Below, piece by piece: positions 15,545-26,258 of a DNA stretch of 64,000 bases. Position numbers and translations under genes: made by a program. Where the stretch lies: NCBI RefSeq assembly GCF_010499455.1, contig NZ_JAAGOH010000025.1:1-64000 (forward strand), written 5' to 3'. A model generated the notes under the pieces. The model was not told the origin of the DNA. It saw nothing but the letters and a program-made list of their open reading frames with translations, and did not search any database. Source of the DNA: Ideonella livida. Lineage in GTDB: Bacteria > Pseudomonadota > Gammaproteobacteria > Burkholderiales > Burkholderiaceae_C. Position 1 is the first letter of the stretch. Each line of letters opens with the position of its first letter.

Positions 15545-16372
15545 ATGAACTTCACCAGCCTGCTGGACCACGTCACCCACCGCCACGAGTCCATGCTCTG
15601 CGTGGGCCTGGATCCCGAACCGGCCAAGTTCCCGGTGGGCATGAAGGGTGACGAGCGCCGGATCTTCGAGTTTTGCGCCCGCATCGTGGATGCCACCAAG
15701 GACCTGGTCTGCGCCTTCAAGCCGCAGATCGCGTACTTTGCGGCCCACCGCGCCGAGGACCAGCTCGAGCAGCTGATGGCCTACATCCGCCGCGTGGCGC
15801 CGGATGTGCCCATCATCCTGGACGCCAAACGCGGCGACATCGGCGCCACCGCCGAGCAGTACGCCCGCGAGGCCTTCGTGCGCTACCAGAGCGATGCGGT
15901 CACGCTCTCGCCCTACATGGGCTTCGACTCCATCGAGCCCTACCTGAAGTACGACGGCAAGGGCCTGATCCTGCTGTGCCGCACCTCCAACCCGGGCGGC
16001 TCGGACCTGCAGTTCCAGACCCTGGCCTCGGGCGAGAAGCTCTACGAGGAAGTGGCCCGCCTGGCCGCCGGCCCCTGGAACGCCTCCGGCCGCCTGGGCC
16101 TGGTGGTGGGGGCCACCTTCCCCGAGGAGCTCAAGCGCGTGCGCGAGCTGGCGCCCACCCTGCCGCTGCTGATTCCCGGCGTGGGCGCCCAGGGCGGAGA
16201 CGCCGCCGCCACCGTGGCCGCCGCCTGGCGGCCGGACGCGCCCATCATCGTCAACTCCTCGCGGGCCGTGCTTTACGCCAGCCAGGGCGAAGACTACGCC
16301 CTGGCCGCCCGCCAAGTGGCCCAGGCCACCCGAGAACAGCTGGCCCGCGCCCGCTTCGCCCCCGCCACCTGA
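15545..16372 (+). CDS. pyrF: Orotidine 5'-phosphate decarboxylase
   Basis: This is the last enzyme of UMP synthesis, converting OMP to UMP. It is the longer (275-aa) type 2 form. The catalytic motif DAKRGDIGATAEQYA contains the Asp-Lys-Asp network (about residues 96-110). VGLDPEPAKFP is the N-terminal strand, CRTSNPGGSD binds substrate, and GVGAQGGD near residue 218 binds phosphate. It sits 41 bp after purB. A strong hairpin begins 9 bp beyond its stop. Confidence 0.97.
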   Translation: MNFTSLLDHVTHRHESMLCVGLDPEPAKFPVGMKGDERRIFEFCARIVDATKDLVCAFKPQIAYFAAHRAEDQLEQLMAYIRRVAPDVPIILDAKRGDIGATAEQYAREAFVRYQSDAVTLSPYMGFDSIEPYLKYDGKGLILLCRTSNPGGSDLQFQTLASGEKLYEEVARLAAGPWNASGRLGLVVGATFPEELKRVRELAPTLPLLIPGVGAQGGDAAATVAAAWRPDAPIIVNSSRAVLYASQGEDYALAARQVAQATREQLARARFAPAT

Positions 16373-16380
16373 GCCGGCCG

Positions 16381-16409
16381 GCGCCGGCGCCCGGACAGGG
16401 CACCGGCGC
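16381..16409 (+). terminator. Hairpin after pyrF
   Basis: Arms GCGCCGGCGCCC (16381-16392) and GGGCACCGGCGC (16398-16409) pair over 12 bp with one mismatch around a GGACA loop. There is no U-run, so it may be a terminator helped by another factor, or a 3' mRNA-protecting stem. Confidence 0.45.
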
Positions 16410-16512
16410 TGCGCCCCCCCGGAACGAAGCACGCCACCCAAAAACAGATTACGCGCCAGCCCCAACGGGTGCACACTGACGCAGCCCTACCGCGGCACGC
16501 CCGCCACACCCC

Positions 16513-18342
16513 ATGCCCGCCCCCGCCTCGACGCCCACCGCGCCCATGCGCCTGCATGAGCTGCTGCGCATCGCGCTGGGCGCAGCCTGTGGGGCCGCCC
16601 TGGGCAGCGGCTGGTTGGGCAACCCCCTGCTGGGCGCCCTGGGGGCCAGCCTGGGCGCCGGCCTGGCGGCCCGCTGGCGGCCCGCTGCTGACCACGCCGG
16701 CGACAGCGACGGCCAGGGCGGTGCCCCTCCTGGCGGACAGGCCGCCGCCCTCGACCCGCTGGCCGATCCCCCCTGGGCCGAGGTGCTGTGCACCTACCTG
16801 CCCGATGCCTTGGTGATCACCGAGCGCGCCACCGGCCGGCTGCTGTGGGTCAACCCCGGCTTCGAGCGCATGACCGGCTGGGCGCCGCATGAGGCCCTGG
16901 GGCGCACCGCCCTGGACCTGGGCCTGTGGGTCAATCCCGCCGACCGCCTGGTCTGGATGATGGCCTTGCGGCGCGAGGGTCGCCCCCTGGCCTGGAGCGG
17001 CCGCTTCCGCCGGCATGACGGGCAGGAGATGGTGGTCCAGCTGGCTTGCCAGGTGGCCCCGCTGCAGGGCCACGAGGTGGTGCTGATCGCCGCCCGCGAC
17101 ATCACGGAAGAGGCCCGGGCCCAGCGGCTGGCCGAGAGCCAGCGCGCCGAGCAGGCCGCCGCCCAGGCCCGCGCCCTGACCGAGGCCCGTGACGCCGCCG
17201 AGGCGGCGAGCCGGGCCAAGAGCCAGTTCCTGGCGCGGGCCAGCCACGAGATCCGCACACCGCTCTCCGCCCTGCTGGGCCTGGCGGGCATGGCCCGGGA
17301 CCCCGGACTGGACGACCTGCGCCGGCGCCGCTACATCGAGCTGCTGTGCGACAGCGCCGAGGCGCTCTCGCGCATCCTCTCCAACATCCTCGACTTCAGC
17401 CGCATCGAGGCCGGCCGCCTGAGCGTGCAGCCGCAACCCTTTGACCTGCCGGCCCAGCTCGATCCGCTGGGCGGGGCCTTCAGCGCCCTGGCCGATGCGC
17501 GCGGGCTGCAGATGGAGGTGTCACTGGCGCCTCAGCTGCCGCACATCGTGGTGGGCGACTGGGACCGGCTGCGCCAGATCCTGGTCAACTTCCTGCACAA
17601 CGCACTGAAGTTCACCCGGGAGGGCGGCGTGCACTTGGTGGTGGAACCCGCTGCGGGCGACCGGGTGCGTTTCGAGGTGCACGACACCGGACCCGGCATC
17701 GACGCCGCCACCTGCGCCCGCCTGTTCCAGCCCTTCGTCCAGGCCCAGGGCCCGCAGGCGGTGCGTGCCGGTGGTTTTGGCCTGGGGTTGTCCATCTGCC
17801 GCGAGCTGGCCCAGCTCATGGGCGGCGAGGTGGGCGTGGACAGCCAGCCCGGCCAGGGCAGCTGCTTCTGGCTGGAACTGCCCCTTCCGGCGGCCGATGC
17901 GGCCACCACCCAGAGCAGCGGCCTGACCCTGATGGACGGCCAGCCCCTGCAGGGGGTGCATGTGCTGGTGGCCGAGGACAACGCGGTCAACATGCTGATC
18001 GTGGCGGCCATGCTGGAGGGTTGGGGCGCCGAGGTGACGCAGGTGGGTGATGGTGCCCAGGCGGTGGCGGCGGTCCGGGAGGCCGCGCGCCGCGGACAAC
18101 CGGTGGACCTGGTCCTGATGGACCTGCAGATGCCCGAGATGGACGGCCTGGCCGCCACCCGGCGCCTGCGCCTGGACTGGACCCACCAGCAGCTGCCCAT
18201 CGTGGCCCTGACCGCCGCCGCCCTGCAGCATGAGCAGGACGAAGCCCTGGCCGCCGGCATGGACGGCTTCCTCACCAAGCCCATCGATCCGCCCCGGACC
18301 CGGCAGATGGTGATGCGCCTGCTGGGTCTGCCCAGCCGCTGA
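16513..18342 (+). CDS. Hybrid sensor histidine kinase/response regulator
   Basis: This 609-aa protein has the following order. A Gly/Ala-rich hydrophobic stretch spans about residues 12-55 (possible membrane contact). A PAS domain (about 90-190) has VITERATGRLLWVNPGFERMTG. A coiled-coil linker covers about 195-235. The HisKA domain has the phospho-acceptor His245 in SHEIRTPLS. The HATPase domain has NFLHNALKF, DTGPGID and GFGLGLSI. A C-terminal receiver (about 480-600) has EDNAVN, phospho-acceptor Asp537 in VLMDLQMPEMDG, and FLTKP. There is no output domain, so phosphotransfer probably goes to a partner encoded elsewhere. The start could also be the ATG at 16546. The ligand is unknown. Confidence 0.9.
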   Translation: MPAPASTPTAPMRLHELLRIALGAACGAALGSGWLGNPLLGALGASLGAGLAARWRPAADHAGDSDGQGGAPPGGQAAALDPLADPPWAEVLCTYLPDALVITERATGRLLWVNPGFERMTGWAPHEALGRTALDLGLWVNPADRLVWMMALRREGRPLAWSGRFRRHDGQEMVVQLACQVAPLQGHEVVLIAARDITEEARAQRLAESQRAEQAAAQARALTEARDAAEAASRAKSQFLARASHEIRTPLSALLGLAGMARDPGLDDLRRRRYIELLCDSAEALSRILSNILDFSRIEAGRLSVQPQPFDLPAQLDPLGGAFSALADARGLQMEVSLAPQLPHIVVGDWDRLRQILVNFLHNALKFTREGGVHLVVEPAAGDRVRFEVHDTGPGIDAATCARLFQPFVQAQGPQAVRAGGFGLGLSICRELAQLMGGEVGVDSQPGQGSCFWLELPLPAADAATTQSSGLTLMDGQPLQGVHVLVAEDNAVNMLIVAAMLEGWGAEVTQVGDGAQAVAAVREAARRGQPVDLVLMDLQMPEMDGLAATRRLRLDWTHQQLPIVALTAAALQHEQDEALAAGMDGFLTKPIDPPRTRQMVMRLLGLPSR

Positions 18343-18359
18343 CGCCGCCCGGCGGCCGC

Positions 18360-19118
18360 TCAGACCGGCCGCGGCAACCCCTCGACAAAGACCCGCAGCT
18401 CGCCCGGACGCATCGCCGTCCAGGCCTCGTCGCGCGTCAGGGGCTCGGTGGCCACCAGGGCCACGCGGTCATGCGGCGTGGTGTGCTGGGCAAAGTCCAC
18501 CCGCAGGTCCTCGTCCTTGAGCGAGACGGGGCGGAAGGGGTGCTCTCGCACCACCCAATGCAGATGGGTTGAGCAGTGGGCCCACAACGCCTGCCCGTTG
18601 GACAGCAGCATGTTGAAGGTGCCGTGCCGGTGCAGACGCGGACACAGCTCGGCCAGGGTGCGGCTGAGCTCCTCCACACTGGGCACGCTGGCATGCGACT
18701 TGGCCAGCTCCTGCATCAGCCAGCAGAAGGCGCGCTCGCTGTCGGTGTCCCCCACCGGCCGGAAGGCGCCATGCAGCCGGGGGTGGAAGTCCACCAGGTT
18801 GCCGTTGTGCGCCATCACCCAGTAGCGGCCCCAGAGCTCGCGCTGGAAGGGGTGCGTGTTCTCCAACGCCACCTGGCCCTGGGTGGCCTTGCGGATGTGG
18901 GCGATCACCTGGCTGCTGCGGATGGGCCAGGTCTTGATGAGCGCCGCCACCGGCGAGCTGCGGGCGCTTTGCGCATCCACGAAGAGCCGCACGCCGCGGT
19001 CCTCGAAGAAGCCGATGCCAAAGCCGTCCTTGTGCTCCTGGGCGCGGGTGGCCAGGCCGGTGAAGCTGAACATCACGTTGGTCGGCGTGTTGGCGTTCAT
19101 GCCCAGGAGTTGGCACAT
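18360..19118 (-). CDS. Class II glutamine amidotransferase (YafJ/EgtC-like)
   Basis: This 252-aa Ntn-type hydrolase domain protein has Cys2 as the presumed nucleophile exposed by removal of Met1 (MCQLLGMN). Typical segments are HKDGFGIGFFED, AHIRKATQG, ENTHPFQRELWG, WVMAHNGNL and GDTDSERAFCW. The family includes E. coli YafJ and the EgtC gamma-glutamyl hydrolase. Nothing nearby belongs to ergothioneine synthesis, so YafJ-like is the safer label. It is convergent with the histidine kinase gene, with a 17-bp gap. Confidence 0.9.
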   Translation of the reverse strand: MCQLLGMNANTPTNVMFSFTGLATRAQEHKDGFGIGFFEDRGVRLFVDAQSARSSPVAALIKTWPIRSSQVIAHIRKATQGQVALENTHPFQRELWGRYWVMAHNGNLVDFHPRLHGAFRPVGDTDSERAFCWLMQELAKSHASVPSVEELSRTLAELCPRLHRHGTFNMLLSNGQALWAHCSTHLHWVVREHPFRPVSLKDEDLRVDFAQHTTPHDRVALVATEPLTRDEAWTAMRPGELRVFVEGLPRPV

Positions 19119-19259
19119 GTCAGGAGGGCCGGCAAGGGCGTGCAGCAGAAGGGATGGCGCCGGATTCTAGGAGGCCGGCCCAGGCTGCGGCCGGGCTTGA
19201 GACGGGTCAAGGCCCAGCCCGCGCCGCGGCGGGACCATGGCAGCACAAGGAGAAGCCTC

Positions 19260-19646
19260 ATGACCGCTCTGCCCACCTCTGAACAACGTGCCCAACTTGC
19301 CCAGCGCCTGCAGGCGCGACGCCTGCAGCTGATCGAACAGCGCCAGGCCCAGCTGCAGGGCCAGGACCGCGTGGCTTACGCCACGGAGCTGCTGCTGCAG
19401 GATGGGGACGATGCGCCGCAGCGCGACGCCGATCGGGAAGTGGCGCTGGCACGCGCCGACCGTGAGCGCCAGGAGCTCGGCCACATCGAGCAGGCGCTGA
19501 TGCGCCTGGACCATCCCGGCTTCGGCCTGTGCACCGACTGCGGCGAGCCCATCGCGCTGGCCCGCCTGCAGGCCGAGCCCTGGGCACTGCGCTGCGTGGC
19601 CTGCGAGAGCGCCCGCGAAGGCTGGCAGCCGCGCCATACCCTGTGA
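19260..19646 (+). CDS. TraR/DksA-family zinc-finger protein
   Basis: This 128-aa protein has a long coiled coil (residues 8-85, rich in Glu/Arg/Gln) followed by a compact C4 zinc finger, CTDCGEPI and CVAC (about 94-120). The DksA/TraR family binds the RNA polymerase secondary channel and modulates initiation with or without ppGpp. Acidic residues (DGDD, about residues 44-47) lie near where DksA carries its DxxDxA coiled-coil tip, but the exact motif is absent, so it may be a specialised paralogue and not the main DksA. The start is supported by AAGGAG 7 bases upstream. It converges on the ABC-fusion gene 33 bp downstream. Confidence 0.87.
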   Translation: MTALPTSEQRAQLAQRLQARRLQLIEQRQAQLQGQDRVAYATELLLQDGDDAPQRDADREVALARADRERQELGHIEQALMRLDHPGFGLCTDCGEPIALARLQAEPWALRCVACESAREGWQPRHTL

Positions 19647-19679
19647 GGGCTACCCCGCCTGACGGGGCCGTTGGGCGCC

Positions 19680-21083
19680 TCAGCGCACTGGCTCGGGCGC
19701 CCGCCCGCCCTGGCGCTTGAGCGCCGCCTCCAGCTTGATGAGCTGCCACTCCTCCTGCGCGGTGTAGCGGAAGGTGGCCTCCAGGGCCTGCGTCTGGTGC
19801 AGGGCCGAGGCCACCGAGGTGCCCTGCCGCACCAGCCAGCCCGCCGCCATCAGCGCCGCCAGACCGGCGCCCTCTTGCGCCAGCACGCAGACCACCTGCC
19901 CATGGTCCAGGCCCTCGGCCACCTGGCCGATGAGCTGGGCCAGGCCCGCGGTGCTGTGAACCGTACCGGCGTCGGCGGCGGCCCGCAGCTGCAGGCCCGC
20001 CAGAGTGGCCGACTCGGCCATGGCCGGCCCTTCCAGGCCCAGGGTGAGGACCGTGCCCACCCCCAGCTGGCGCAATGTGGTCAGGGTGCTGTCGAGCAGG
20101 CGCTGGCCCGCGGGCAGCAGCAGGCAACCCAGCCGCCCCGGCTCGACCCAGCGCATCGGCGCGGGCAGTACGGGCAGACCGGGACGAGGCGCCAGCGGCG
20201 CCGTCGGCTCGCGGGACTCCAGGAAATCCGAAGGCGCCGGCGAGGCCACGTCCCCCCAGTCGGTGGGCGGAGCCAAGGGCTCGGCGGGCCGCGGCATGGC
20301 GGCTGACACAGCCGCCGGGGTGGCGGTGGGTGAAGCCGGCAGGTACTGGCCGGTGCGCAGGAACAGCGCCACTGGCGAGTCCGCCGCCGGACGGAAGAAG
20401 GTGGTGACCGGCTCGGCGGCGCAGACCTGGCCGTGGGCCATCAGCACCACCAGCTGGCCGATGGCCCGGATGTGCTCGATCTGGCGCATCACCGCCAGCA
20501 CGGCGCGGTCCTTGGCCAACTGGCTCATCAGCGACAGCACGCTGATGGCGCCGGCGCGGGGCAGGCCCGCCGTGGGATCGTCCAGCAGCACCAGCGGTTC
20601 CCCCATGACGGCGGCCATGCCGATACCCAACCGCCGGAACTGGGCCACGCTCAGGTCGGCCAGCTCGGCCTGCTTGAGGGCCACCAGATCGCCGCAGCCA
20701 TGCCAGGCCAGGGTTTGCCAGGCCAGGTCCAGGTCCAGGATCTGACTGGGCTGCCGTGCCCGGTGGCAGCGGCGCATGAACTCCTCCACTGACAGGCGGA
20801 TGCCCGGCGGGTTGGGAAAGGCCATGAAGGGCCGGTTGCGGGGCTGGAGCGGCGCGCCATGGAACTGCGCCCGTCCGTGGTGGACCATGCGGCCGACATC
20901 GCGCGAGAGCACCGCCATGCCGCGCAGCAGCATGGACTTGCCGCCGCCGGCCGGACCGGTCAGCACCGTCACCCCGCGGGCGGGCACCCGAAGGTCGACC
21001 CGGCTGAGCAGGACGCGCTCGCCCGCCGTCAGACCGAACTGCTGCAACTCCAGAATGCTTGCACCGGGCATGCTACTGCTCAT
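19680..21083 (-). CDS. Degenerate ABC ATPase fused to a pseudophosphatase-like domain
   Basis: This 467-aa protein has an ABC-ATPase core at residues 9-245 with a good Walker A (GPAGGGKS, 43-50), but several catalytic positions differ from active transporters. The Q-loop Gln is Pro90 (AFPNPP). The signature is LSVAQ (144-148) instead of LSGGQ. The Walker B Glu is Asp169 (LLDDP), and the H-loop His is Arg200. A Pro/Ala linker (246-305) leads to a domain (306-455) whose layout resembles dual-specificity phosphatases: MRWVEPGRLG, LRQLGVGTVLTL, and a P-loop position reading LAQEGAGLA where HCxxGxGRT is expected, so the catalytic Cys (Ala402) and Arg (Leu408) are lost. No permease gene is adjacent. 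ATP binding seems possible; function is unknown. Confidence 0.8.
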   Translation of the reverse strand: MSSSMPGASILELQQFGLTAGERVLLSRVDLRVPARGVTVLTGPAGGGKSMLLRGMAVLSRDVGRMVHHGRAQFHGAPLQPRNRPFMAFPNPPGIRLSVEEFMRRCHRARQPSQILDLDLAWQTLAWHGCGDLVALKQAELADLSVAQFRRLGIGMAAVMGEPLVLLDDPTAGLPRAGAISVLSLMSQLAKDRAVLAVMRQIEHIRAIGQLVVLMAHGQVCAAEPVTTFFRPAADSPVALFLRTGQYLPASPTATPAAVSAAMPRPAEPLAPPTDWGDVASPAPSDFLESREPTAPLAPRPGLPVLPAPMRWVEPGRLGCLLLPAGQRLLDSTLTTLRQLGVGTVLTLGLEGPAMAESATLAGLQLRAAADAGTVHSTAGLAQLIGQVAEGLDHGQVVCVLAQEGAGLAALMAAGWLVRQGTSVASALHQTQALEATFRYTAQEEWQLIKLEAALKRQGGRAPEPVR

Positions 21084-21218
21084 GTCCCATAGAAGGCTTC
21101 CCTGCGGCCGGTGAATGCCAGCGCGCCGCCCAATTCGGTGCGCCCGTCGACCCAGGTGCCAACACGGAGTCTAGCGGCCCTGTCCGCCCCCGCACCCCCG
21201 TTGGCATCAATCTGTGAG

Positions 21219-22637
21219 TTATCCCCCTGACGTGGAGGCCGCCAGTGCCCGGCCGGCCAAGGCCATGGAGGCCAGCAGGGCGCTGGCGGCCCCGGTCCGC
21301 AGGGCCAGGGCCACGGGCACACGCGCGCCCAGCACCACCCCGCAGCTGGCCGCACCGGCCAGGTACTCCAGCTGCTGGGACAGCAGGTGGCCGGCCTCCA
21401 GGTCCGGCGCCAGCAGCACATCGGCCTGCCCGGCCACGGGACCGTGCAGGTCTTTCAGGCCTGCCGCCTCCATGGAGATGGCGTTGTCAAAGGCCAACGG
21501 ACCGTCCACCACCGCGCCACGGATCTGCCCGCGGTCGGCCATCTTGCACAGGGCAGCGGCGTCCAGGGTAGAGGCGATGCGCGGCGTCACCGTCTCGACG
21601 GCCGACAGCACGGCCACCCGCGGGCAGGCCACGCCCAGGGCCTGGGCCAGGTCGATGGCGTTGCGCAGGATGTCGGCCTTGGCGGCCAGGTCCGGTCGGA
21701 TGTTGACCGCCGCATCCGTCACCAGCAGGGGTCGGCCGTAGGCAGGCACCTCAAAGCGCGCCACGTGCGAGAGCCGTCGGCCGGTGGCCAGGGCCGGCTC
21801 GGCCAGCACCGCCAGCATGAGCTCCTCGGTGGACAGGCTGCCCTTGCAGAGCAGGTCGACCTCACCCCGCGCGGCCAAGGCCACGGCGGCCTGCGCCGCC
21901 GCATGGCTGTGGGGCTGGTCCACCAGGGTGCAGCCCGCCAGCGTCAGCTCCAGGCTGTCAGCCAGGGCCTGCAGCCGGGCCGCAGGTCCGAGCAGCACGG
22001 GCTGCACCAGCCCCGCGGCGGCGGCCTGCACAGCCGCGCGCAGCGACGACGCGTCACAGGGATGCACCACCGCACAGCGCGCGGGCTGCGCCGGGCGCTG
22101 CGCGGCCACCCAGGCCGCCAGCCGGGCCTCCGGGTCGAAAAGGTGCAGCGTGGGTGCGGCCAGCCGGGGCCGGCTGATCTTCTGCGACGGGGCCTTGACC
22201 AGCGCCTGGCCGCTGACCACCTGCTCGCCCACCTGGTTGACGACAGCGCAGTCCAGCCGCACGTTGCGGGTGGCCGGGTCCTTGTCCAACACGGTGACGC
22301 TGACCACCAGCGCGTCGCCCACGCGCACCGGACGGTGGAAGCGCAGGTTTTGCTCCAGGTAGATGGTGCCGGCCCCGGGGAACTCGGTGCCCAGGAGGCT
22401 GGAGACCAGCGCCCCGGCCCACATGCCGTGGGCGATGACACCGTGGAACCGGGTGGTCTCGGCCCAGGCCGCGTCCAGGTGGGCGGGGTTCACGTCCCCC
22501 GACACCGCCGCGAAGGCCTTGATGTCGTCCATGGCCAGGGTGCGGTGCAACTCGGCACGCTGGCCCGGCTGCAGTTCATCGAAGGTGTGGTTGTGCACCA
22601 CGCCGTGGGCGCCCTCGGCGCCGGCCATGCCCGTCAT
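21219..22637 (-). CDS. Bifunctional MaoC enoyl-CoA hydratase/phosphate acetyltransferase
   Basis: This 472-aa fusion has a MaoC-type (R)-hydratase domain at residues 15-150, with the hydratase motif SGDVNPAHLD and HGVIAHGMW. The C-terminal Pta-type acyltransferase domain spans about 185-470 (LLCKGSLSTEELM, VTDAAVNIRPDLAAK, GPLAFDNAIS, VLLAPDLEAGH). It would hydrate enoyl-CoA and exchange acyl-CoA with acyl-phosphate. The start has a strong AGGAGG 8 bases upstream. fabI lies immediately upstream on the same strand (39 bp), forming a two-gene operon. In many Burkholderiales an acetate kinase gene is found in this cluster; it is absent here. Confidence 0.9.
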   Translation of the reverse strand: MTGMAGAEGAHGVVHNHTFDELQPGQRAELHRTLAMDDIKAFAAVSGDVNPAHLDAAWAETTRFHGVIAHGMWAGALVSSLLGTEFPGAGTIYLEQNLRFHRPVRVGDALVVSVTVLDKDPATRNVRLDCAVVNQVGEQVVSGQALVKAPSQKISRPRLAAPTLHLFDPEARLAAWVAAQRPAQPARCAVVHPCDASSLRAAVQAAAAGLVQPVLLGPAARLQALADSLELTLAGCTLVDQPHSHAAAQAAVALAARGEVDLLCKGSLSTEELMLAVLAEPALATGRRLSHVARFEVPAYGRPLLVTDAAVNIRPDLAAKADILRNAIDLAQALGVACPRVAVLSAVETVTPRIASTLDAAALCKMADRGQIRGAVVDGPLAFDNAISMEAAGLKDLHGPVAGQADVLLAPDLEAGHLLSQQLEYLAGAASCGVVLGARVPVALALRTGAASALLASMALAGRALAASTSGG

Positions 22638-22676
22638 GTCAGGTCCTCCTTCTCAGGGGTCAGGTCCACGCCGCGC

Positions 22677-23459
22677 TCAACGCACCGCATGCTCGCCTGC
22701 ATCCACGTACAGCGTCTGGCCGGTCATGCCGGTGGCACCAGGCCCCGCCAGGAAGGCGACCAGGGCGCCCACCTCGTCCAGGGTGACCAGGCGACGCAGC
22801 GGCGCCGTGCGGGCGGCAGTGGCCATCAGGCCGTCGAAGTCGGCCAGGCCCGAAGCGGCCCGGGTGGGCATCGGGCCGGGCGAGACGGCGTGGACCCGGA
22901 TGCCCTGCGGCCCGAGCTCGGCCGCCAGGTAGCGCACCAGGGACTCCAGCGCCGCCTTGACCGGGCCCATCAGGCCGTAGTTCGGGACCGCCTCCTCGGC
23001 CCCCAGGTAACTCATGGTCACCAGGGTGCCTTGGCGGGCGGCCAGGTGGGGTTCGGCACACCGGGCCAGCTCGGCAAAGGAATGGCATGAGACCCGCATG
23101 GCCCGCGCAAAGCCCTCGGCCGTGCTGTCGGCCACCCGGCCATGCAACTCGGCCAGGGGGGCGAAGGCGATGGAATGGACCACGAAGTCCAAACCGCCCA
23201 GCTCGGCCGCCGCCGCCTCGACCAGGCCGGCGATGGCCCCCGGCGCCTCGACGTTGCACTCATGCAGGCTGGCCTGCAGCGCCTCGGCCAAGGGACTGAC
23301 CACCGCACGGGCCTTGGCATTGAGGCAACTCAGGGCCAGTCGGGCGCCTTGGGCATGGAGCTGCCGGGCACAGCCCCACGCGATGCTGGCATCGTTGGCC
23401 ACCCCCAACACCAGGCCGCGGCGACCGGCAAGGGGGGGCGGGAAAGGCGTCTGGCTCAT
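22677..23459 (-). CDS. fabI: Enoyl-ACP reductase FabI
   Basis: This 260-aa short-chain dehydrogenase-type reductase performs the last step of fatty-acid elongation, reducing enoyl-ACP with NAD(P)H. FabI hallmarks are present: GVANDASIAWGCA at the nucleotide site, SYLGAEEAVPNYGLMGPVK with the Tyr-x6-Lys catalytic pair and the extra upstream Tyr, and SPGPMPTRAASG in the flexible substrate loop. AGGAG lies about 7 bases before the ATG. Because it is paired with MaoC-Pta, it may be a second FabI serving acyl-CoA or PHB-related metabolism; the main fabI could be elsewhere. A 22-bp palindrome lies 69 bp upstream of its start. Confidence 0.88.
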   Translation of the reverse strand: MSQTPFPPPLAGRRGLVLGVANDASIAWGCARQLHAQGARLALSCLNAKARAVVSPLAEALQASLHECNVEAPGAIAGLVEAAAAELGGLDFVVHSIAFAPLAELHGRVADSTAEGFARAMRVSCHSFAELARCAEPHLAARQGTLVTMSYLGAEEAVPNYGLMGPVKAALESLVRYLAAELGPQGIRVHAVSPGPMPTRAASGLADFDGLMATAARTAPLRRLVTLDEVGALVAFLAGPGATGMTGQTLYVDAGEHAVR

Positions 23460-23527
23460 GAGCGGCTCCTGTCAGGAACCTGCGAACATGCCCGAGTTTT
23501 GTGGTGCCGCCATGAATGCCCGAGCAG

Positions 23528-23549
23528 AACCCAGGGTTAACCCTGGGTT
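23528..23549. promoter_or_regulatory. Perfect 22-bp palindrome upstream of fabI
   Basis: The half AACCCAGGGTT (23528-23538) is followed directly by its exact reverse complement, with no loop. It sits between the DUF805 gene stop and the fabI start (both minus strand). A loop-free perfect palindrome suits a dimeric repressor site better than a terminator; a terminator-like role after the DUF805 gene remains possible. Confidence 0.55.
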
Positions 23550-23569
23550 GAGGGGGATCTCCAAAGCCT

Positions 23570-25111
23570 TCATCGGTTGACCCAGGCGTGGTCAACATGC
23601 ACCAGCACACACTCGGCCGTGTAGGGCTGGCGGGCCTGCTCGCAGTGGTTCCAGGCCACCTCGACGGCCGCCGCCGGCGAGGCCCGGCCACTGGACCACC
23701 CATAGGCCCCCTGCGGCGACACGGCAAACGCGCGGTGACCGGTTTCCAGCAGGTAGTGCTGGCGGAAGGCCTCCGCGGCCTCGGACTTGCCCAGGTAGGC
23801 GTCGATCTCGGCCGCCAGCTGCGGCGGCACGTCGGCAAAGGCGGCCTCGTCGGACTGCTCGGACTGCTGGGGCAGGTCGCGCATAAAACGCTCCAAGGCC
23901 CTCAGCGCCATCTTGCTGCCGATGAGCAGCACGGCCACCAGCACCACGGCGCAGACACGCAGCACGCCCCCATGGCGATCGGCGGGCGGCGGCCCATAGT
24001 CGTTGTCACCTTCGGTGCCAGGCCAGATGGCCAGGGCGAAGCTGAAGATCTGCCCCACCGTGGGCACCAGGGTGAGCAGCAGCCACCACGCCGAGAGGTT
24101 GACGTCGTGCAACCGCAGGGCGGTCATGCGCAGGCCCATGACGCCCACAAGGACCAGCAGCACGGCGTTGAGCAGGAGCATCACGGCCCCGGGCGCCAGG
24201 GCCAGCAGCATCAGCCCGCCCAGCAGCACGGTAATGCTCAGCAAGCCGCCCGCCAGGTAGCTCTTGCGGTTGAGGCGGCCGTCGATATGGCGCCCGAAGA
24301 GGCCGGGCTCCTGGGCGTCCTGCACGGGGGCGGCCCCACCACGGTGGCCGGGCCGCGCTGCGCCCGAGGCCACGGCCTGACGGGCCTCGCGCTCGGCCTG
24401 GCGCTCCTCCTCACGGGCCGCCAGGGCCCGGGCCAGGTCGGTCACGCACTCCTGGCAAAAGGCCTGCATGCGCTGGCGGGTGCCGCATTGGGGGCAGACC
24501 ACCCAGGGCACTCCGGCCTCGGCGGCAGCAGCCGCCGAGGCAGCCACGGCCAAGGGGTCCGGCAGGGGGGCCACGGACTCCTGGGGCGCCAGGGGCACCA
24601 GGGACAAGCCGCTGCTGTCAGGGGCGCTGGCATCGGGCTCGGGTGCCCGGCGGGCCGGTGCCGGCGGCGGCACCTGAGGCAGGCTCGGCAGCGGGGCGAT
24701 GGGCGTGCGGCCCGCCGGCGGCAGGCGCAGCGCCGGCGACTCCACCCGGGCAGGCCGGTGGGCCGGGGGCATGGCGGTCGCGGTGGGAGGCACCCGTCCC
24801 GGCACCGGGACCGGGGCCGGCGCCGGCGCGGATGCCGGCGTGCGCAGGGCGGCCCCACCCGATGCCGGCACTGCCTCGGCGTGGGCCGGCTGGACCCGCA
24901 GCACCGCACCGCGCTGGGCGAAACGGTTCACCCAGGCCGCCACTTCTGCAGAGGGCACCGCGCGCTTGATGACGACAGGGCGGCCGGAAAACATCTGGTC
25001 CAGCCGCGGGGTGTCCAACTGCAGCCAGGCGCCCAGACGCTCACGCACCGCCTCGGGCGTGGCACCCGGCATCAGTTCTCCGGCAAACACCAGCCGCATC
25101 GGCGCATCCAT
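23570..25111 (-). CDS. DUF805 membrane protein with zinc ribbon
   Basis: This is a 513-aa multi-domain protein of unknown role. Residues 1-80 form a small alpha/beta domain (RLVFAGELMPGATPEAV, FSGRPVVIKRAV). A Pro/Ala-rich linker follows, then a zinc ribbon CPQCGTRQRMQAFCQEC near residue 210. The DUF805 region (about 260-375) has four predicted membrane helices, with RLNRKSYL at its start and ALRLHDVNLSAWW inside, and one more helix follows at about 390. A C-terminal extracytoplasmic domain of about 110 residues ends HVDHAWVNR. The ATG at 25111 is preferred because GGAGAG precedes it and homologues begin near here; an in-frame start 29 codons upstream is less likely. Confidence 0.8.
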   Translation of the reverse strand: MDAPMRLVFAGELMPGATPEAVRERLGAWLQLDTPRLDQMFSGRPVVIKRAVPSAEVAAWVNRFAQRGAVLRVQPAHAEAVPASGGAALRTPASAPAPAPVPVPGRVPPTATAMPPAHRPARVESPALRLPPAGRTPIAPLPSLPQVPPPAPARRAPEPDASAPDSSGLSLVPLAPQESVAPLPDPLAVAASAAAAAEAGVPWVVCPQCGTRQRMQAFCQECVTDLARALAAREEERQAEREARQAVASGAARPGHRGGAAPVQDAQEPGLFGRHIDGRLNRKSYLAGGLLSITVLLGGLMLLALAPGAVMLLLNAVLLVLVGVMGLRMTALRLHDVNLSAWWLLLTLVPTVGQIFSFALAIWPGTEGDNDYGPPPADRHGGVLRVCAVVLVAVLLIGSKMALRALERFMRDLPQQSEQSDEAAFADVPPQLAAEIDAYLGKSEAAEAFRQHYLLETGHRAFAVSPQGAYGWSSGRASPAAAVEVAWNHCEQARQPYTAECVLVHVDHAWVNR

Positions 25112-25344
25112 CACCCGCTCTCCCTCGTCCAGTCCCTTGAGATGGTCCAGACGGGTCGGTGCAGGGCACGGCGCGCCTGGGCAGGCGCGCTCCGGCATGG
25201 CCAGGGACGCGCGTGCGGGCGAGAGCCTAACGAGCCAGAAGCGATGGCGTCGCCCGTACCCGGCCGGCCGGAGGGGTCTGGGGGCCGGACGGCCGCGCCT
25301 GAAAGCCGGGCGGCCAGGCGCTGCAGGCGGAAGCCAGGGGCCGC

Positions 25345-26088
25345 TCAGGCCTCGGCGGCGTCGCGGCGCAGGGCGTCCAGCAGCACGTCCATATGGATGA
25401 GCGCATGCTTCTGGTCAGGGGCTTCCAGCACACCCTCACGCTTGAGCTGGGCCAGGGTGCGGCTGGCGGTCTCGATGGTCATGTCCAGCATGGCACTCAT
25501 CTCCAGGCGCGAGGGCAGCCACACGGCCTGGCCATCGGCGTATTCGCTCAGCTTGAGCAGCAGGCGCAGCATGCGGTGGCGGGCGGGACCGGCGCACAGC
25601 TCGGTGAGCCATTCGTCGGCGTCGTCCAGGGCACGCTGCCAGCGGCGCATCATGTCGCGGGCCAGTTCCACCTGGTCACGGGTGAGCTCGTCGACCAGGC
25701 TGCGCGGCAGGCGGCAGACCTCGACCTCGGTGCAGGCCACCGCGTCGGCGGCATAGGACTGGCCCAGCATGGCCTCCATGCCCAGGGTGTCGCCCCGCCC
25801 GCCCAGGCGCAGGATGCGGCGCTCGCCGCGTTCATTGAGGCGCTCCAGCCGCACCACACCGCTGCGCACGGTGTAGGCCGCCTGGCCAGGCGCCTGGGCG
25901 CTGTAGAGCAGTTGGCCGGGGGCCAGGCGGATGGTGGCGATCTGGACGTGGATCTGGTCCAGGGCCGTCAGGTCCAGGGCGCCGAAGAGGGCGTGCTTGC
26001 GGATGCCGCACTCGGCACAGACCCGCGCCTGCGGGTTGAACAGGGCCGGCGTGCCGGCGAGCAGGGGAATGACGTTGGCAGCGGACAT
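25345..26088 (-). CDS. Crp/Fnr-family transcriptional regulator
   Basis: This 247-aa DNA-binding regulator has a cyclic-nucleotide-fold sensor (about residues 40-140), a dimerisation helix, and a C-terminal winged helix (LEMSAMLDMTIETASRTLAQLKREG). The N-terminus has CAECGIRKHALFG, resembling FNR proteins, but the third cysteine of the FNR C-x2-C-x5-C cluster motif is Ala; two further cysteines lie near residue 120 (VACTEVEVC). An FNR-type 4Fe-4S cluster is therefore doubtful, and the signal could be redox, heme or something else. The ATG at 26088 was chosen over one six codons upstream because it aligns with the usual short N-terminus. Confidence 0.87.
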   Translation of the reverse strand: MSAANVIPLLAGTPALFNPQARVCAECGIRKHALFGALDLTALDQIHVQIATIRLAPGQLLYSAQAPGQAAYTVRSGVVRLERLNERGERRILRLGGRGDTLGMEAMLGQSYAADAVACTEVEVCRLPRSLVDELTRDQVELARDMMRRWQRALDDADEWLTELCAGPARHRMLRLLLKLSEYADGQAVWLPSRLEMSAMLDMTIETASRTLAQLKREGVLEAPDQKHALIHMDVLLDALRRDAAEA

Positions 26089-26258
26089 GGCGCGGCCAGT
26101 ATGCACAAACGCCCTGGGGGTCGCCGCGCTCCGGGCGACAGCCCGGGAAGCGGTCAGGGACTCCGCCCAACCTGGCGTGCCACCGGGGCCGCCCCCAGAC
26201 GGGCACGGGCGCCAAGGCGCCCGTGCGGGAGGGGGACGGCGGGCGGCCCCGCAGGACC

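Follow-up and report, generated by a model that had tools for sequence, protein, structure and literature searches.

Based on the profile, genomic and structure-prediction evidence presented here, we have identified in Ideonella livida a gene that fuses an ABC ATPase domain to a domain with the fold of dual-specificity phosphatases (DSP) and in which, as the initial annotation of this DNA had proposed, both active sites are changed. Of the seven catalytic positions of such fusions (QDEHDCR), this copy retains D168 alone, and gene position together with phylogeny demonstrates its orthology, at the same place, with an intact gene of a congener (genome G181). The copy is fast-changing and probably enzyme-dead, and the reading to which we incline is that a signalling ABC-phosphatase has here given rise to a scaffold that binds ATP but is catalytically dead. 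The gene, its domains and its neighbours are listed in Table 1.

Table 1. Features of the I. livida fusion locus; positions are counted from the first letter of the window, the whole stretch of 64,000 nucleotides that was analysed
Feature	Positions	Strand	Remarks
ABC-DSP fusion gene	19680..21083	-	1404 bases, single open frame, 467 aa
ABC ATPase domain of the fusion	20334..21059	-	residues 9-250; Q90P, E169D, H200R; Walker A and Asp168 kept
Pro/Ala-rich linker of the fusion	20169..20333	-	residues 251-305; pLDDT <50 (low confidence)
DSP-fold pseudophosphatase domain of the fusion	19698..20168	-	residues 306-462; C402A, R408L, T409A, D372A
Pta-type bifunctional enoyl-CoA hydratase/phosphate acetyltransferase-type gene	21219..22637	-	upstream of the fusion; NCBIfam NF006045, 627 bits; 66% identical to G181
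FabI-type enoyl-ACP reductase gene	22677..23459	-	NF005717; shared flank, 72% identical to G181
DksA/TraR-type zinc-finger gene	19161..19646	+	PF01258, dksA models below cut-off; start at 19161 is our choice
Class II glutamine amidotransferase gene	18360..19118	-	PF13230; far-side shared flank, 82% identical to G181

The I. livida protein aligns over residues 4-458 with a family profile built without its own sequence (216.8 bits). Its N-terminal half matches the Pfam model ABC_tran (PF00005) over residues 26-172 with 35.6 bits, above the cut-off of 25, and the top Foldseek hits are chains of E. coli PstSCAB (PstB, to judge by length), together with other ABC ATPases. The Walker A motif is intact, GPAGGGKS being read at residues 43-50, and Asp168, the Mg-binding residue of the Walker B motif, is retained; the hydrolysis set of ABC ATPases (Q-loop Gln, catalytic Glu and H-loop His) is absent, the aligned columns being occupied by Pro90, Asp169 and Arg200. 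On these changed residues the initial annotation was right. The signature LSVAQ (residues 144-148), which it had counted among the peculiarities of the protein, is indeed present but is not special to this copy, because the whole ABC-DSP family is non-canonical at this motif.

For the C-terminal half, a resemblance to DSPs had been drawn from a pattern alignment, with a profile search and structure prediction suggested as checks, and both return a DSP fold. The I. livida sequence itself scores 17.8 bits against PF22785 (DSP-PTPase, Pfam; residues 331-421), below the cut-off of 27; the same region of five intact homologues matches PF22785 (64-81 bits) and PF22784 above cut-off in every case, and DSPc in four of the five. 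A profile of the DSP region finds solved DSPs with a best E value of 6.7e-40 (4.4e-29 for DUSP23); it consists of 52 rows, the I. livida copy included, and the same alignment was supplied to AlphaFold2, whose model of residues 306-462 reaches a pLDDT of 91 and a pTM of 0.87. The first Foldseek matches of this model are Tk-PTP (1.2e-7), ShufPTP and DUSP23 (1.1e-6). Since intact homologues stand in the alignment, the AlphaFold2 models speak for compatibility with the fold and not for actual folding of the I. livida copy. The Pfam matches of the homologues, the family profile and the predicted fold with its Foldseek matches bear out the proposed resemblance, and as far as sequence and model can tell, the C-terminal half of the fusion has the DSP fold. 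Its active site is altered as had been described: the HCxxGxGR(S/T) P-loop of Cys-based DSPs is not matched, residues 401-409 reading LAQEGAGLA with Ala in place of Cys402 and Leu in place of Arg408, and the general-acid column 372 holds Ala, with D371 adjoining it near a one-residue gap.

To judge by their sequences, the full-length homologues are a conserved ABC-DSP fusion family of Beta- and Gammaproteobacteria. Searching 299 genomes of its family with the I. livida protein turned up homologues in 10 genomes besides its own; within the genus, 3 other genomes of 16 carry fusion homologues and 12 of the 16 have no family match. A small conserved protein, which we label C1, led to 79 loci of Beta- and Gammaproteobacteria (the best 79 of 188 C1 relatives), and in 75 of them the fusion adjoins the C1 gene at a distance of at most about 400 bases. 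In the remaining four (L049, L062, L066 and L109) the contig is short and C1 lies close to one of its ends, so that in our reading a fusion gene would lie off the contig. The resulting alignment has 89 rows, namely the I. livida copy, 13 sequences from the genome searches and 75 from the C1 loci, some genomes being present in both; the tree, built by a quick method, has 88 rows and 84 distinct sequences. In Comamonas testosteroni SWCO2 the fusion is split into two overlapping ORFs (L055, 5339-6969), through a frameshift or a sequencing error, and the 87 comparison rows are the alignment minus this split ORF and the I. livida copy. Another genome (G003) has two fusion genes (L025 and L030) in different settings, each adjoined by a C1 of its own.

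Q90, D168, E169, H200, D372, C402 and R408 are all intact in 86 of the 87 comparison rows, the exception being L061. An alignment of homologues had been suggested as a means of seeing whether the altered motifs are conserved; they are not, and since nearly all homologues keep the catalytic positions, the changes are a private loss of the I. livida copy rather than a family trait. The initial annotation had also named two findings that would overturn its view: a different fold in the C-terminal region, where we find the DSP fold, and intact motifs in close homologues, which these rows indeed carry, so that its view is refuted in part. A wider survey used the family profile at E 1e-45, with four candidates scored in each listed genome and with overlapping draws from the order and the phylum. 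The order draw gave matches in 5 of its 399 genomes and the phylum draw in 17 of its 398 (I. livida counted in both), and 13 of the 17 phylum matches reach, by their aligned range, essentially the ABC part alone. Among the full-length matches the I. livida copy scores 8.7e-64 and all others 2.7e-145 or stronger; no second strongly diverged fusion copy was seen in this order and phylum survey at E 1e-45, a threshold at which weaker ones could be missed.

In G181, the gene order is glutamine amidotransferase, likely DksA-type (a counterpart inferred from an antisense-ORF match), patatin-like, C1, intact fusion, Pta-type, FabI, FNR-type regulator and UvrA. C1 and the patatin-like gene thus sit between the DksA-type counterpart and the fusion, and neither is present at the I. 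livida locus. Between the two species the fusion proteins are 31% identical and five shared neighbours 66-83%. In I. livida, positions 23570-25198, between FabI and the FNR-type regulator, encode a DUF805 protein whose N-terminal extension is long; G181 lacks it at that place. Among 13 genus loci (tblastn, about 1.5 kb of flank), the fusion stands beside the Pta-type gene in I. livida and G181 only; one of the 11 other Pta loci (L121) has a cut-off flank, and its genome has no fusion match elsewhere by profile. G181 is also the nearest tree row to the I. livida copy, whose end branch measures 3.92 changes per site in the quick tree (G181, 0.27; median, 0.19); a branch of this length cannot be placed with certainty on its own, and orthology rests on gene position. 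C1 was not found in the I. livida genome (99% complete), a profile search giving 0 matches at E values up to 10; as a control, 4 of 4 other genomes searched in this way did yield C1. GTPase or roadblock genes are likewise missing among the flanking genes searched, and scanning 19550-21400 for promoters and terminators gave no site, the lack of a promoter-like one being a point against the scaffold reading. Two paralogous GTPase-roadblock pairs are located on other I. livida contigs (L144, 5040-7754, C16; L145, 1120-3808, C24), the first of them flanked by what, on visual inspection, resemble the flagellar genes fliF/fliG on one side and fliD/fliC on the other; a scaffold could thus still have partners.

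The neighbourhoods of the intact genes suggest what the family does. Among the best 79 of 188 loci, 30 (within L033-L111) have a small P-loop GTPase gene before the fusion and, before that, a gene for an unassigned protein of about 216 residues; a roadblock-type protein is encoded in 25, one representative matching Robl_LC7 with 53.8 bits; and a ferredoxin-globin protein, in some cases with a reductase part, occurs in 23 by single-sequence search and in 12 by clustering. The term MglA-like is our own label for these GTPases, whose representatives match ATP_bind_1 above cut-off, the Ras-, Roc- and small_GTP-type models staying below cut-off. C1 has no Pfam match above cut-off. It has an NLGM-type motif in common with roadblock proteins, and HMM-HMM comparison with Robl_LC7-type neighbours gives probabilities of 32% and 46%; no roadblock structure is matched when its profile is searched against the PDB up to E 10. 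A roadblock-like nature of C1 is therefore a weakly supported lead from sequence. Tandem C1 copies are seen in one locus (L104, 6496-7396), and another (L089, 5-700) has a second C1 and the end of a further fusion gene. The intact protein may act as a switch in the cytoplasm, its phosphatase being gated by the binding of ATP to the ABC domain, and it is predicted to work with the adjacent C1 and, in many loci, with the MglA-like GTPase module.

The initial annotation had considered a transporter role unlikely for want of a permease gene, and the data agree. No permease gene is found among the flanking genes searched (15545-26106), and the relatives of the fusion mostly lie beside C1 (75 of 79 loci) and often near a GTPase gene (30 of 79). 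A phosphonate-type ABC permease gene does occur in 8 of the best 79 of 188 loci (L041-L044, L046, L037, L051 and L050, the last as a short piece near the locus start). A function as an ABC transporter subunit was nevertheless rejected as improbable, the permease loci that were checked (L043, L037 and L028) also holding a separate transport-type ATPase gene; the fusion proteins of L028 and L037 are identical. An anti-phage defence protein was likewise discarded as a candidate: PADLOC matches the ABC part only (mad3, with 2.3e-7 for the I. livida copy and 4e-17 for the intact homologue of L023), with no match to C1. Neither does a plasmid origin hold, 0 of 354 matching plasmid records covering 80% of the query.

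A second altered member of the family is encoded in a Giesbergeria metagenome-assembled genome (MAG; L061, 5693-6976). It has independently lost E169, H200 and D372 and retains the Cys and Arg of the P-loop. We defined a position as near-invariant when it is common to at least 95% of the 87 rows, which gives 47 positions (19 in the ABC and 28 in the DSP half); L061 keeps 44 of these, and the three that it has lost are all catalytic. Relative to its intact sister L036, its dN/dS is 0.25 in the ABC half and 0.17 in the DSP half, within both ranges spanned by six other pairs (0.06-0.28 and 0.02-0.32, respectively); the case is that of a single MAG, and the comparison was set up once its losses were known. 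It supports the view that catalytically reduced versions are tolerated and kept. We can only tentatively suggest a common picture, in which ABC-DSP fusions would be the ATP-gated phosphatase arm of roadblock/MglA switches, with catalytic centres silenced more than once, fully in I. livida and partly in the Giesbergeria MAG, and ATP binding or fold kept, leaving a nucleotide-loaded scaffold.

Whether the I. livida copy is maintained or drifting was approached from its near-invariant positions, of which it retains 24 of 47: the ABC half has kept 15 of its 19, the DSP half 9 of its 28. The four ABC losses are Q90P, E169D, H200R and P233A; three of them are the hydrolysis residues, and neither Walker A nor Asp168 is changed. 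That the ABC losses include all three hydrolysis residues has a chance of 0.004, a post hoc value, as altered motifs were the reason for choosing the finding. Neither the corresponding DSP test (0.30) nor a test for the retention of all binding residues (0.18) is notable; the loss of the three DSP catalytic residues is no surprise, as so few near-invariant positions of that half are left. The GC content of the gene by codon position (0.763/0.528/0.906) resembles that of its neighbours, unlike that of intergenic DNA (0.726).

Four designs of neutral-drift null were run. Drift from G181 to the observed identity leads to a GC2 of 0.60-0.78 and a mean of 2-9 stops, compared with 0.528 and none in the I. 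livida copy, whose core retention on the wider residue set lies above all 300 runs per null in both halves; on a stricter hydrophobic-core set it exceeds all runs in the ABC half only. With other members of the family as starting points (their halves 42-66% identical to those of G181), the observed ABC core is reached in 38-119 of 200 runs on the wider set and in up to 135 of 200 on the stricter one, and the DSP core, whose retention is thus moderately high, in 0-24 and 5-55 of 200 runs, respectively; drift of the ABC half is thus not rejected when the null starts from distant members (ABC 42-45% identical to G181). A further null, run to the observed identity, started from host-coded ancestors 65-75% identical to G181, which corresponds to the lower part of the identity range of the neighbours. 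Its GC3 maximum is 0.883-0.925 as against 0.930 observed, its mean number of stops is 2.9-4.4, with 0-14 of 200 runs free of stops, as the I. livida copy is, and none of 800 runs (four settings of 200 each) attains the observed ABC core retention of 46/52; for the DSP core, attained in 0-22 of 200, the outcome is borderline. Codon-position composition, the lack of stops and the retention of the hydrophobic core thus argue against long neutral decay, and we conclude that selection for a folded protein has acted through much of the divergence, with a recent relaxation possible.

The suggestion that a nucleotide-binding sensor or scaffold is the more plausible role therefore receives qualified backing, since the composition and fold-retention tests lean towards a maintained protein and one drift null does not. 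Such a protein would fold and, with Walker A and Asp168 retained, would bind ATP without turnover; it could not dephosphorylate, having lost the Cys and Arg of the P-loop, and as a nucleotide-bound scaffold or decoy it would signal through partner binding. The alternative that deserves the most attention, and that we hold to be possible though doubtful, is that the loss of the partner gene left the fusion without a task and that it is now an eroding relic, drifting without selection, in which the rarity of stops at high GC has preserved the open frame. The absence of C1 from the genome fits this course of events, as do the lack of any relative in the same altered state, the loss of 19 of the 28 near-invariant DSP positions and the 12 of 16 genus genomes without a family match. 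The long end branch is also what relaxed constraint would produce, and the nulls that start from distant family members are compatible with drift in the ABC half. Decay from G181 or host-like ancestors, however, is rejected by the host-level GC3, the low GC2, the absence of stops and the strong retention of the ABC core, and the full retention of Walker A and Asp168 also speaks against a relic.

Two further explanations seem to us highly improbable. In one, the protein would still be an enzyme by means of other residues, Asp169 supporting a slow turnover of ATP and the DSP half binding phosphate in another way. Slow ATP turnover is reported for some Glu-to-Asp changes; the replacement is conservative, Asp168 and Walker A are retained, and D371 lies one residue from the general-acid column. 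However, the Q-loop Gln and the H-loop His are lost as well, the P-loop Cys and Arg are missing, and the usual Cys-based phosphatase chemistry is impossible without these two residues. In the other, equally far-fetched in our view, the gene would belong to a deep divergent subfamily and would have been acquired by gene transfer, taking the very place of the resident gene; its altered sites would then be old and common to unsampled relatives. The 31% identity to the nearest sequence would be explained in this way, as would the lack of an intermediate among the sampled genomes (399 of the order and 398 of the phylum, overlapping, with four candidates per listed genome). The G181 flanks on both sides, a location seen in no other genus locus examined and the host-like composition by codon position nevertheless argue against a transfer.

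If the scaffold reading is true, a single polypeptide ties two widespread enzyme classes, an ABC ATPase and a Cys-based phosphatase, to the Ras-like GTPase switches of bacteria, and the natural series of intact, partly dead (L061) and fully dead (I. livida) members would make the roles of catalysis and binding separable. Either way, the I. livida gene could show a signalling enzyme turning into a scaffold, or decaying; even if it is a relic, the intact family is exposed and ready for assay. No description of an ABC-DSP fusion was found in the literature searched; a paper on the rhodanese-phosphatase superfamily may mention one. Among known systems, the MglA modules of Group 3 combine MglA with an unknown protein and with one or two MglB, and no ABC-DSP member is named in the part of the source consulted (PMC4316618). 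The likeness of our loci to these MglA/MglB modules, as far as that part of the source describes them, lies in the genes for an unassigned protein and a GTPase (30/79) and for a roadblock protein (25/79) in the best 79 of 188, whereas the I. livida fusion has none of these beside it. PstB-like, import-type ABC ATPases have the fold, Walker A and the Walker B Asp in common with the I. livida protein, which differs from them in lacking the catalytic Glu, the Q-loop Gln, the H-loop His and a canonical signature and in being fused to a DSP domain. For the other half, predicted fold and family profile agree on DUSP23/VHZ-like atypical DSPs, Tc-R-P (PF22785) and PTP-SAK (PF22784); unlike these, the I. 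livida domain has lost Cys and Arg, is changed in the general-acid column, scores below the Pfam cut-off and is fused to an ABC domain. STYX, a eukaryotic pseudophosphatase with a DSP fold that lacks the Cys, is regarded as acting by binding. The I. livida fusion may resemble it in this, but it is bacterial, is joined to an ABC domain and has lost the P-loop Arg as well.
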